Origin: Candidatus Mediterraneibacter pullistercoris
Lineage (GTDB): Bacteria > Bacillota > Clostridia > Lachnospirales > Lachnospiraceae
Reading direction: 5' to 3'
Assembly: GCA_019116885.1 (NCBI GenBank)
Contig: DXAU01000018.1
Location: forward strand, 1 to 64,000
Length of the DNA: 64,000 nt
In this document: one piece after another, positions 34,278-44,594 of the stretch
How the letters are laid out: every line of letters begins with the position of its first letter
How positions within the stretch are numbered: position 1 is the first letter of the stretch
Translations under genes and position numbers: made by a program
The notes under the pieces: generated by a model
What the model was told of the DNA's origin: nothing
The model's database searches: none
The model's input: the letters and a program-made list of their open reading frames with translations, nothing else

Positions 34278-34318
34278 TAAGACTCCTTTATATTCATTGA
34301 ATTTGACAGTTCCATTTT

Positions 34319-34347
34319 ATTTTAATGACAGCAGGTATAGAAGTCAA
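34319..34347 (-). promoter_or_regulatory. Sigma-A promoter for asnA
   Basis: On the minus strand, TTGACT (34342-34347), a 17-base spacer and TAAAAT (34319-34324), about 40 bases from the start codon. Confidence 0.7.
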
Positions 34348-34409
34348 CTGTAAAGGAAGATAAATTAACAGATAATTATAAAGAAATGCAATAAAATTCT
34401 AAAAAAAGA

Positions 34410-34438
34410 TTGACATATAGATAATAAAGAGTTATTAT
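34410..34438 (+). promoter_or_regulatory. Strong sigma-A promoter for the candidate ncRNA
   Basis: TTGACA (34410-34415), a 17-base spacer and TATTAT (34433-34438). Transcription would start near 34445. No open reading frame of note lies between this and the terminator at 34707-34753. Confidence 0.75.
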
Positions 34439-34444
34439 AATATC

Positions 34445-34753
34445 AAGAAATAAAACTTATTGAAAGTTTTGTAAAACCGGTTGAATTCGTTACCGGGAAA
34501 TGGGTGATCAGATATAGAGAAAGATCATAATGACGAGAAAGTTATGAGAGAAGTAAAATCTATATCAGAAGGAAGGTCATCGAGGAACCCGGGTTCAACA
34601 GGAATCTAAGTAAAGGAGGTACGGACCACCGGGAACATAAGCTGATCTATCAATCAGAAAGATAGAAAAAGAAAGAGGTAAAAACAAATGATAGAAATAT
34701 CAGTATGAAAGTGGATGTTGATCAAATCAATTGGTTGGCATCCACTTTCTTTG
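34445..34753 (+). ncRNA. Candidate structured non-coding RNA (~310 nt), unknown class
   Basis: The stretch has its own strong promoter and terminator, no plausible protein, and several compatible stems: CCGGT/ACCGG (34477-34481/34492-34496), TGATC/GATCA (34505-34509/34523-34527), the 8-bp GATATAGA/TCTATATC (34511-34518/34559-34566, partly alternative to the previous one), GGAGGT-ACGG-ACCACC (34615-34630, one A-A mismatch) and CTGAT/ATCAG (34642-34646/34653-34657). The 12-base palindrome GAACCCGGGTTC (34585-34596) lies between them. The AAAGGAGG here could mimic a ribosome site, but no ORF follows. I do not recognise the class; the raiA-type clostridial RNA would be worth comparing. The 3' boundary is inferred from the terminator. 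Confidence 0.6.
34707..34753 (+). terminator. Terminator of the candidate ncRNA
   Basis: GAAAGTGGATG (34707-34717) and CATCCACTTTC (34739-34749) form a perfect 11-bp stem with a 21-base loop, followed by TTTG. Confidence 0.7.
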
Positions 34754-34774
34754 TGTAAACAGCAAGACTGTATC

Positions 34775-34803
34775 TTGTCAGGAAATGCGAACACTGATAG
34801 AAT
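34775..34803 (+). promoter_or_regulatory. Promoter for the WYL regulator
   Basis: TTGTCA (34775-34780), a 17-base spacer and TAGAAT (34798-34803), with TGA directly before the -10. It starts a separate transcript after the ncRNA terminator. Confidence 0.65.
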
Positions 34804-34868
34804 AAACGGGAGAACTGATATCGGATACGGACAGATGCAGGATGCGTATATACAAGGCGGGAAGACGG

Positions 34869-35864
34869 ATGGCAAAGAGCAGCAACCAGAAAGCAAAAAT
34901 ATTATATCTGATGGAATTGTTCCTGGAACAGACAGACGAGGAGCATCCGCTCTCGCGCAGATGCCTGGAAGAGAAACTTTCTGACATTGGCATCCGTGCA
35001 GAGCGAAAGACTCTGTATAACGATATAGAAACGCTCAAGAGCTTTGGGCTTGATATTGCTTACCGGAAAGAACAGCCGGAGGGATATTATCTCGCACAGA
35101 GGGAGTTTGAACTCCCGGAGCTGAAGCTGCTCGTGGATGCGGTACAGTCTTCGCGATTTATCACGCAGAAGAAATCAGACAGCCTGATCCGCAAGATTGC
35201 GAAGCTTGCCAGCAGATATGAGGCCCGAAGCCTTCAGCGCCAGGTGGTAGTGGCGGACCGTATTAAGGCGATGAACGAGAGTATCTACTATAATGTGGAC
35301 AAACTGCACGCCGCTATTGGCAGAGATGAGCAGATTGTGTTCCGATATTTTGAGTGGACAGTCTCGAAAGAGATTCGTCTGAAAAAAGACGGTGAGAGAT
35401 ACTGCGTGAGTCCGTGGGCCCTGACCTGGGACAATGAGAATTATTATCTGATCGGATATGATATGGAGGCGGGAATTATCAAACATTTCCGCGTGGACAA
35501 GATGCTGCATATTGAGCTGGAAGGGCAGAAGAGGGCCGGAAGAGAGGAGTTCTCTAGATTCGATCTGGCACAGTATACGAAGAGGACTTTCAGCATGTTC
35601 GGCGGAAATGAAGAGACAGTGCGTCTTCGGTTCCATAACAGATTTGTGGGAGTTGTGATTGACCGCTTTGGGAAAGACGTTTCTCTGCGTCCGGATGGGG
35701 AGACGCATTTTACAGCCCGTGTCCAGGTCGCGGTCAGCGAACAGTTCTTTGGCTGGATGACTGGTCTGGGGAGAGACGCGCAGATCCTTTCGCCGCAGTC
35801 TGTAGTCGATGAATACAGGAGACTGCTGGGGGATCTGGAAGACATGTATAAAGACGCAGAATAA
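34869..35864 (+). CDS. WYL-domain transcriptional regulator
   Basis: A 331-residue regulator with an N-terminal winged HTH (~1-75; MELFLEQTDEEHPLSRRCLE, AERKTLYNDIETLKSFGLDI) and a WYL domain (~130-235; VFRYFEWTVSKEIRLKKDGE and YCVSPWALTWDNENYYLIGY) followed by a WCX-type C-terminal extension. WYL domains bind nucleic acid or nucleotide ligands. I prefer ATG 34869, where the family normally begins (MAKSSNQKAKILYLMEL), over the ATG at 34842; neither has a strong ribosome site. Targets are unknown; the adjacent ncRNA is in the same direction but on a separate transcript. Confidence 0.85.
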   Translation: MAKSSNQKAKILYLMELFLEQTDEEHPLSRRCLEEKLSDIGIRAERKTLYNDIETLKSFGLDIAYRKEQPEGYYLAQREFELPELKLLVDAVQSSRFITQKKSDSLIRKIAKLASRYEARSLQRQVVVADRIKAMNESIYYNVDKLHAAIGRDEQIVFRYFEWTVSKEIRLKKDGERYCVSPWALTWDNENYYLIGYDMEAGIIKHFRVDKMLHIELEGQKRAGREEFSRFDLAQYTKRTFSMFGGNEETVRLRFHNRFVGVVIDRFGKDVSLRPDGETHFTARVQVAVSEQFFGWMTGLGRDAQILSPQSVVDEYRRLLGDLEDMYKDAE

Positions 35865-42680: not shown

Positions 42681-44594
42681 ATGAAACACGGATTTGTAAA
42701 AGTTGCCGCAGCCACGCCGGATATCCGGGTGGCAGATGCAGAGTTCAACACAGAGAAAATATGTGAAGCGATCAGCGAAGCCTGCAGACAGAAAGCGAAG
42801 ATCATCGTGTTTCCGGAATTATGTGTGACCGGATATACATGCGGAGATCTGTTTACTCAGGATGTTCTTTTAAAAGCGGCGAAAGATGCTCTGATAAAGA
42901 TTGCAGATCACACAAAGGACAAGGATATCCTGGCATTTGCCGGTGCGCCTCTGTCTGTCGGCGGCAAGCTGTACAATGTGGCGGCGGCAATGAATCAGGG
43001 AAAGATCATCGGGCTTACGACAAAGACATTTCTTCCAAATTACGCAGAATTCTATGAGATGCGGCAGTTTACACCGGGCCCGGATACAGCGGGATATATT
43101 CAGTTTAACGGGCAGAAAGTGCCTTTTGGCCCGCAGCTTTTGTTTAAAGCGGACCAGATGGAAGACCTGGTCGTATCTGCGGAGATCTGCGAGGATGTAT
43201 GGTCTCCGGTTCCGCCGAGCATCGGAGCGGCTATTGAGGGGGCGACTGTGATCGTGAACTGTTCTGCCAGCGACGAAACGATCGGGAAAGATACTTACCG
43301 CAGAGAACTGATCGCCGGGCAGTCAGCGCGCCTGATCGCAGGATATATCTATGCGAACGCGGGAGAGGGGGAATCCACTACCGATGTGGTCTTTGGCGGA
43401 CACAATATCATCGCGGAAAACGGCGCAGTTTTAAAGCAGGCAGACCGGTATCACAATGAGATCATTTATTCAGAACTGGATATTCAGAGGATTGTAAACG
43501 AGAGACGGAAGAATACGACGTTTCAGGCAGCAGCTGTTCAGACGCTCATCCAGATTCCCTTTCATATCAGCAGAGAAGAGACAGCGCTTACAAGAAGATT
43601 CCCGAAGAATCCATTCGTGCCATCAGATGAAAACGTGAGAGCGCAGAGATGCGAGGAGATTCTGACGATCCAGGCGATGGGACTCAAGAAGCGTCTGGCA
43701 CATACAAATTCCAGGACTGCTGTAGTGGGTATTTCAGGTGGTCTGGATTCTACACTTGCGCTTCTTGTGACAGCACGGGCGTTTGACATGCTCGGGCGTG
43801 ATAAGAAAGACATCATCGCGGTGACGATGCCCTGTTTTGGAACAACGGACCGGACATATAATAATGCATGTGAGATGACGAGAAAGACGGGAGCCACACT
43901 AAAAGAGGTGCCGATCGCAGATGCGGTGAATGTCCATTTCCGGGATATCGGACAGGACCCGGAAAACCATGATGTGACTTATGAAAATTCCCAGGCAAGG
44001 GAGCGGACACAGGTACTCATGGATATTGCTAACCGGTCGGGGGGGATGGTCATTGGTACGGGCGATATGTCAGAGCTGGCGCTCGGCTGGGCAACCTATA
44101 ACGGCGACCACATGTCTATGTACGGAGTCAATGCGTCTGTGCCAAAGACGCTGGTCCGCCATCTTGTCAGATATGCGGCGGATGAGACGTCTGACGGGGA
44201 ACTGCGCAGGGTTCTTTATGATGTCCTCGATACGCCGGTGAGCCCGGAACTGCTTCCGCCAAAGGACGGAGACATTGCACAGAAGACAGAAGATCTTGTA
44301 GGGCCTTATGAACTGCATGATTTCTTCTTATATTATATGATCCGTTTCGGATATGAGCCGGCGAAAGTTTTCAGGCTGGCAGAGCTGGTGTTTAACGGAG
44401 ATTATGACAGGGAGACGATTCTGAAATGGCTGAAGACGTTCTGCAGGAGATTTTTCTCTCAGCAGTTCAAGCGCTCCTGCCTGCCGGACGGACCGAAGAT
44501 CGGTACGGTAGCGCTCTCTCCGCGGGGAGACTGGCGTATGCCGAGCGACGCGTGCGCGGCAGTATGGATGAAAGAACTGGATGAATTAGAATAG
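42681..44594 (+). CDS. nadE: Glutamine-dependent NAD+ synthetase
   Basis: A 637-residue two-domain enzyme. The N-terminal nitrilase-type glutaminase (~1-290) has the Glu in IVFPELCVTGYTCGDL, the Lys in KTFLPNYAEFYE and the nucleophile Cys in VSAEICEDVWSPVPPS. The C-terminal synthetase (~300-637) has the ATP P-loop VVGISGGLDSTLALLV and GTGDMSELALGWATYNGDH. It converts deamido-NAD to NAD+ with glutamine as nitrogen source. AAAGGAAAGG precedes ATG 42681; the TTG at 42660 is an alternative start. Confidence 0.97.
   Translation: MKHGFVKVAAATPDIRVADAEFNTEKICEAISEACRQKAKIIVFPELCVTGYTCGDLFTQDVLLKAAKDALIKIADHTKDKDILAFAGAPLSVGGKLYNVAAAMNQGKIIGLTTKTFLPNYAEFYEMRQFTPGPDTAGYIQFNGQKVPFGPQLLFKADQMEDLVVSAEICEDVWSPVPPSIGAAIEGATVIVNCSASDETIGKDTYRRELIAGQSARLIAGYIYANAGEGESTTDVVFGGHNIIAENGAVLKQADRYHNEIIYSELDIQRIVNERRKNTTFQAAAVQTLIQIPFHISREETALTRRFPKNPFVPSDENVRAQRCEEILTIQAMGLKKRLAHTNSRTAVVGISGGLDSTLALLVTARAFDMLGRDKKDIIAVTMPCFGTTDRTYNNACEMTRKTGATLKEVPIADAVNVHFRDIGQDPENHDVTYENSQARERTQVLMDIANRSGGMVIGTGDMSELALGWATYNGDHMSMYGVNASVPKTLVRHLVRYAADETSDGELRRVLYDVLDTPVSPELLPPKDGDIAQKTEDLVGPYELHDFFLYYMIRFGYEPAKVFRLAELVFNGDYDRETILKWLKTFCRRFFSQQFKRSCLPDGPKIGTVALSPRGDWRMPSDACAAVWMKELDELE

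Follow-up and report, generated by a model that had tools for sequence, protein, structure and literature searches.

A stretch of about 310 nt lying between the asnA and WYL genes of Candidatus Mediterraneibacter pullistercoris is almost certainly an independent, conserved RNA gene, and its product belongs to an RNA class that seems not to have been described before. The best reading of the data, to which we assign a probability of about 0.5, is that this is a free-standing Lachnospiraceae RNA that would act in trans by engaging ribosomes. Among gut bacteria, the Lachnospiraceae are a major family. Structured RNAs that fall outside the known classes are seldom encountered, and they have often proved important, as with 6S, tmRNA, and ModT. 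The present RNA combines a covarying fold with translation signals, namely a hairpin-embedded consensus Shine-Dalgarno (SD) sequence that lacks a start codon, together with a micro-ORF fused to the terminator; we did not find this combination described. If ribosome engagement holds true, the RNA would connect ribosome availability directly to an RNA regulator, in a way that can be tested.

In the window, the 64,000-nucleotide stretch of contig DXAU01000018.1 analyzed here, the RNA locus is flanked by asnA (PF03590) and a gene for a WYL/WCX regulator, and Pfam upheld both identities, which had been proposed in a preliminary description of this DNA. The sigma-70 promoter TTGACA-N17-TATTAT claimed in that description is present at 34410–34438 on the + strand, matches the consensus at 11 of 12 positions, and is kept in the genus alignment. 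Because the region contains five promoter-like sites, compared with a mean of 3.0 in shuffled sequences, this single call is convincing solely by its conservation. The predicted transcript of ~310 nt extends from this promoter to a terminal hairpin at 34707–34749, and the locus is single-copy in its own genome as a DNA match. The interval had also been called gene-free; no + strand ORF of at least 30 amino acids starts between 34278 and 34714, and to that extent the claim stands, but a conserved six-codon ORF occupies 34688–34708. A candidate WYL promoter, TTGTCA-N17-TAGAAT, was found at 34775–34803, in agreement with the separate promoter that had been claimed for this gene. The WYL proteins of the genus align only from residues 7–10 onward, suggesting that the true WYL start may be the ATG at 34869, not that at 34842.

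Of 61 relatives searched at the DNA level, 40 had matches at E ≤ 0.01. The strong matches all came from the same genus, very likely Mediterraneibacter, and those in other families were short and weak. A covariance model built from 28 sequences detected the RNA, as a single copy each time, in 49 of the 58 genus genomes; of the 35 genomes with a completeness of at least 90% and a contamination of no more than 5%, 31 carried it. At 27 of 30 distinct genus loci (L002–L031, with flanks of about 1.5 kb or less), asnA adjoins the RNA and is always divergent from it; L024 and L027 are truncated by contig ends, and L007 is uncut yet lacks asnA.

The region 34440–34760 has a predicted folding energy of −81.9 kcal/mol (z = −5.86), and none of 100 shuffled sequences folded as low. 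The elements of the fold, all on the + strand, begin with the 5′ hairpin P0 (AAAACTT/AAGTTTT, 34452–34470) and the long-range helix P1 (34477–34485 with 34594–34602), in which 7 of 9 pairs showed both-sided changes in 28 sequences. P2 (CCGGG 34493–34497 with CCCGG 34588–34592) showed such changes at 5 of 5 pairs, with just 77.9% of cells paired on a sequence-only alignment; P3 (34503–34509 with 34575–34581) showed them at 4 of 7 pairs, and P4 (GATATAGA 34511–34518 with TCTATATC 34559–34566) at 2 of 8, with 99.6% of cells paired. The P5 hairpin, CAUAA-UGACGAGAAAG-UUAUG (34526–34546), carries an 11-nt loop (34531–34541) that is invariant in the genus alignment and common to other genera. Toward the 3′ end, hairpin P7 (UCUAUC/GAUAGA, 34646–34666) is weak, with 78.6% of cells paired and zero both-sided changes, and P8 (UGAUA-GNAA-UAUCA, 34689–34702), which overlaps the micro-ORF, has 99.3% of cells paired and 4 of 5 pairs that never vary. 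The terminal hairpin, an intrinsic terminator, comprises 19 pairs at 34707–34749, with both-sided changes at 5 of them and 99.1% of cells paired, and it has a weak U-tract in many relatives. The terminator previously given as 11 bp is present, but it is longer than was stated. P0 carries an inserted apical domain of 43–77 nt in 15 of the 30 genus loci (L015–L019, L021–L023, L025–L031), with a GAAA-type tetraloop, by eye, in some of the 15.

For a six-helix model drawn from the same sequences and scored on the sequence-only alignment A1 (28 sequences), 93.1% of cells were paired, 18 pairs had both-sided changes compared with a shuffled mean of 9.6, and the covariation score was 0.219 compared with 0.146 after shuffling, a value that none of 500 shuffles reached. 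The signal was lost when the helix partners were slid, and further pair types were not above shuffles in this model (36 versus 36.5). P5 and the core hairpin gain no genus covariation support, because their pairs never vary there, and the internal loops are nearly invariant in the genus alignment. These results indicate that helices P1–P4 covary across the genus loci. The central palindrome GAACCCGGGTTC that had been singled out is present at 34585–34596, but relatives carry UUGAG/CUCAA or UUGG/CCAA for the CCCGG/CCGGG pairing and do not keep it as a palindrome, and half of it is explained because its CCCGG (34588–34592) is a strand of P2. It was therefore dropped as an element, and it is no feature of the RNA class.

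The core element (34601–34651, + strand) contains the SD AAAGGAGGU at 34612–34620, a hairpin at 34615–34630, CCG in place of a start codon at 34629–34631, and an in-frame UAA at 34638–34640. This SD is the exact 9-nt complement of the 16S tail from one genus member; an exact-pattern search of 21 genus genomes recovered the tail in 1 of them, and draft genomes often lack rRNA. In order, the core consists of an SD, an 8-nt spacer, CCN at the position held by ATG in other modules, and then, usually after two codons, UAA. The two cytosines of this CCN are also base-paired to the GG within the SD, and the start-less SD is itself predicted to lie closed in its own hairpin. In the frame set by the ATG of other modules, a stop occurs within codons 2–6 in 79 of 89 representatives (exactly at codon 4 in 65), compared with 36 and 18 of 89 in the other two frames, a count that a conserved UAAG motif of the RNA, rather than a stop codon, could equally yield. 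By this frame count, the core ACC, which had been aligned with the start codon, was replaced by CCN, one base on. An intact counterpart of the core, ATG GGA AGA TAA, occurs in a second RNA of the same genome.

The loop UGACGAGAAAG occurred at 60 of 123 core loci, compared with 0 for each of three permuted motifs. Its stems showed both-sided changes at 6 of 6 pairs, with a score of 0.822 versus 0.218 in 30 sequences. A hammerhead-like reading of the loop, for which the motif was taken from general knowledge, was dropped, since a core cytosine is missing and both flanks pair together.

Beyond the genus, the full model was run against 397 family genomes, of which 83 had matches at E ≤ 0.01 and 314 had none. 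Three of the hits are clear full-length homologues at about 100 bits, neighbored by asnA (L034), by asnA and WYL (L035), and by WYL (L036); the remaining hits were weaker. Most of the weaker loci fetched share the short element AAUCUAAGNAAAGGAGGUACGGACCACC, which usually has a strong promoter upstream of it and different genes as neighbors. In other genera, a weak model hit was counted as a member only if the core motif was present. Among the fetched loci, L035, L039, L047, L055, L060, and L061 lack this motif, although score and synteny mark L035 as a full-length homologue. A 20-letter core pattern matched 27 of 299 family genomes, the present one included, and left 272 without a match, compared with 0 matches in a backwards control. 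Since most family genomes gave no hit in either search (272 of 299 and 314 of 397), the class is patchy or the searches were too strict. A short core model matched 6 of 246 genomes in a sample of the order (own genome included), all from the same family, and the own genome alone in a sample of 245 from the class; both samples also contain family members without a core match.

A scan of named genomes gave at least 119 stretches with the core element. Among the 80 matches listed by name, most are from Lachnospiraceae genera or from a “Lachnospiraceae bacterium”; the genera among the matches listed include Mediterraneibacter, Enterocloster, Blautia, Claveliimonas, Lactonifactor, Parablautia, Diplocloster, Roseburia, and Pseudobutyrivibrio, and the remainder carry looser labels, for example Clostridium, Ruminococcus, or Eubacteriales, with the lineage taken from the label alone. 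As far as sampled, the RNA class appears to be confined to Lachnospiraceae. A prophage or viral origin was set aside after a search of a viral collection with one core pattern, which gave 0 exact matches. Three modules are common to the class: the start-less SD hairpin, the loop UGACGAGAAAG, and the terminal micro-ORF.

The genome under study also carries a second member of the class (L097, contig 3, 105375–105424, − strand), with a closely similar promoter, a start-less SD module, micro-ORFs encoding MGR and MDVIS, each ending in a stop codon, and then a terminator. At another locus, L135, two core elements lie at about 4.2 and 5.0 kb, ~850 nt apart, and are apparently tandem RNA genes.

In the window, the terminal micro-ORF follows its own SD, AAAGAGGT (34672–34679, + strand), and reads ATG ATA GAA ATA TCA GTA TGA (34688–34708, + strand; MIEISV and a stop), with the stop codon abutting the terminal hairpin. 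Of 118 core elements, for which the core was the sole criterion of choice, 112 are followed within 900 nt by a terminator. At 85 of these 112 loci, an SD-like site precedes an ORF of 2–9 codons (mostly 5 or 6) whose stop lies at the terminator stem, compared with 47 of 2756 when the same test was applied to other terminators of the same contigs. The starts are ATG in 62, TTG in 20, and GTG in 3, and the stops are TGA in 35, TAA in 34, and TAG in 16. The frame is doubtful in 3 of the 85 positives (the second element of L135, L177, and L218), and L177 and L218 have a six-codon ATG ORF in another frame. The misses number 27; 15 of them carry such an ORF by eye, and seven show none or a false first terminator. 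At L129 (Enterocloster), L140, and L174, the ATG and MDEIV are kept and the stop at the terminator is lost, falling five codons further into the stem; L122 and L230 deviate more from the pattern. By eye, the stop at the same place is TAA in L034, L036, and L066, TAG in L044, and TGA in L079, a variation that fits a stop codon and not a conserved letter. The locus had been called non-coding; it is a structured RNA gene, as was claimed, but with a conserved micro-ORF at its 3′ end, and this ORF is probably translated. Supposedly non-coding RNAs may conceal conserved five-codon ORFs, which fall below the usual limit of gene finders.

Both translation signals have precedents, as described in PMC3997798 and PMC8708949, and for this reason a trans-acting RNA dependent on ribosome occupancy is favored. 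STAB-SDs, such as that in the cryIIIA leader of Bacillus, are strong SDs that stabilize mRNAs even without a start codon, according to PMC3997798. Likewise, AAAGGAGGT at 34612–34620 complements the 16S tail and is followed by CCN for a start, and it too is a strong SD of the kind that, in that account, needs no start codon. A STAB-SD, however, guards a downstream coding sequence, whereas here none lies within the unit and the SD is inside a structured RNA. For EHEC LEE4, SD occupancy at a six-codon minigene protects the mRNA (as cited in PMC8708949), and the minigenes of LEE4 and axe-txe (mg2) described there resemble the present micro-ORF, a very short conserved ORF with an SD, in being ORFs of two to six codons after an SD that act via ribosome occupancy or translation. 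Whereas LEE4 and mg2 act in cis from within the leaders of protein genes, the micro-ORF here ends at the terminator of a stand-alone RNA.

In the proposed mechanism, the consensus promoter would drive expression of the RNA, and the long arm P1–P5 would form, capped by the invariant loop. The 9-nt SD without a start codon, which could be closed by the CCACC behind it, would hold 30S subunits without initiation. The second SD would start the six-codon ORF, whose end lies at the terminator base, and initiating and terminating ribosomes would occupy the 3′ end. Such occupancy may protect or reshape the RNA, which would become a ribosome-loaded or ribosome-sensing regulator. We put the chance that ribosome engagement is central to the function of the RNA at about even. 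6S is a free-standing structured RNA aimed at a central machine. A wider and rather doubtful proposal is that an RNA found throughout the family addresses the ribosome as 6S addresses RNA polymerase: the start-less SD hairpin would hold 30S subunits, these would pass through the ORF of 5–6 codons that adjoins the terminator, and the level or shape of the RNA would report or buffer free ribosomes.

The main rival is a protein-binding scaffold with incidental SD letters. According to this explanation, the RNA would also act in trans, with the core hairpin and the UGACGAGAAAG loop binding a protein or forming a tertiary scaffold, and the micro-ORF would do no more than tune stability or termination. 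The invariant loop on covarying stems is consistent with such a scaffold, as are the internal loops, which in the genus are nearly invariant, and the core spacer is kept beyond the needs of an SD, though the rows were chosen by that very motif. The preferred frame of the core and the statistics of the micro-ORF are, however, hard to explain without ribosomes, and we regard the scaffold as unlikely but by no means implausible.

Alternatively, the RNA might be mainly a messenger for a peptide of 5–6 residues, with the upstream structure controlling its production. The micro-ORF at 85 of 112 loci is in line with this, and there is constraint at the amino-acid level: among 50 distinct five-codon ORFs, the amino-acid identity was 215 at codon 3 compared with a third-letter shuffle mean of 143 (0 of 1000 shuffles), and 370 compared with 297 at codon 4 (2 of 1000 shuffles), in statistics that ignore relatedness and for an alignment in which codon 2 is partly fixed by the search pattern. 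Codon 5 showed no amino-acid excess over third-letter shuffles in the same 50 ORFs, however, and the peptides are diverse, with 37 different ones among the 50 (MIEISV in the window; MDSIV, MDEIA, MDEIV, and MDNEM are found elsewhere). In addition, the upstream structure in the genus is better kept than a mere 5′ UTR would require. A primary role as a peptide messenger is improbable. For the favored ribosome-engaging reading, the excess at codons 3 and 4 likewise counts in favor, and its lack at codon 5 counts against.

Flanking sequence was sufficient for a test of promoters and neighbors at 76 of the 118 core elements. A consensus-like promoter lies within 600 nt upstream of the core at all 76 loci, compared with 9 of 230 control windows, and the distance from promoter to terminator has a median of 438 nt (range 145–1064). 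The downstream ORF is on the same strand at 50 of the 76 loci and on the opposite strand at 26, and in the genus WYL lies within 1.5 kb at 14 of 30 loci. The promoter at every locus and the varying neighbors indicate a free-standing, trans-type RNA gene, not a leader. Together with the covariation and the presence in 49 of 58 genus genomes, they bear out the earlier proposal of an independent RNA with its own promoter and terminator that is not simply a leader of WYL. A WYL leader was accordingly rejected, and for the class as a whole, a conserved co-oriented downstream gene, as expected of a cis-acting leader or attenuator, was not found among these loci. Attenuation in cis, in which ribosomes on the micro-ORF would block the terminal hairpin and cause read-through into the downstream gene (WYL here), would fit the stop codon that abuts the hairpin and the co-oriented WYL gene and same-strand ORFs downstream, but it is highly improbable in view of the neighbor counts above and of the candidate promoter that WYL has of its own at 34775.

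With a strict pattern for start-codon modules, 54 were found in 40 of 76 RNAs, compared with 0 and 1 in controls; the other 36 RNAs had none, which weighs against the favored ribosome-engaging reading. At L126, L226, and L234, three to five short ATG modules, each consisting of an SD, a spacer, ATG, one or two codons, and a stop, stand in tandem before the terminal one, and MRS/MRR/MRK, MDR, and MGH recur between loci. These modules, together with the repeated occurrence of GGNGGUANNGNCC within single RNAs of some genera, would suit a CsrB-like sponge for a translational repressor recognizing GAGGUAYRGWCCA start regions, but this is extremely improbable, as a 16-letter motif at ≤2 mismatches had no targets at start regions in the own genome: both hits with zero mismatches correspond to the two RNAs of the class, the one-mismatch hit lies within a dnaJ gene, and the hits at ≤2 mismatches were not above control (20 versus 30).

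An Rfam 15 scan at gathering score matched no family at the locus, including T-box, SRP, RNase P, tmRNA, OLE, ROOL, and GOLLD, and at E ≤ 10 it gave only five sub-threshold matches there, to animal microRNA or lncRNA models and a Yersinia sRNA. A gathering-score scan that covered 20 of the 28 related family loci found only a tRNA. The only 6S match (RF00013) of the genome is on contig 60, at 58 bits, and the RNA locus differs from 6S in giving none. These results agree with the preliminary description, in which no T-box, SRP, 6S, RNase P, or tmRNA signature had been recognized. The suggestion of a raiA-type RNA found no support here: the raiA model (RF03072) had no match in 34300–34950 even at E ≤ 10, and none in the whole genome, in a search in which the control genomes were silent too. 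The raiA-motif RNA (ModT) resembles the present RNA in that, according to PMC11706538, it is a highly structured Bacillota RNA that stands alone and has both a promoter and a terminator of its own. In the available part of that paper, the SD hairpin and micro-ORF found here are not named for ModT. OLE, ROOL, and GOLLD are likewise large structured bacterial RNA classes (PMC12286853), but none had a gathering-score match in the window or at the 20 related loci. The core and loop strings occurred in no open-access paper searched, and no description of the class was found among the open-access papers searched; survey supplements, including the thousands of unnamed candidates of PMC8040213, lay outside the search and could include the RNA, and a 2017 survey of 224 candidate RNAs also lay outside it.

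The Rfam matches in the window at gathering score were just those near 2.5 kb, on the − strand at 2458–2886, where a tmRNA (2542–2886) is followed by a tRNA (2458–2530). A second copy of the letters TGACGAGAAAG lies at 43876 in the window, distant from the core element.
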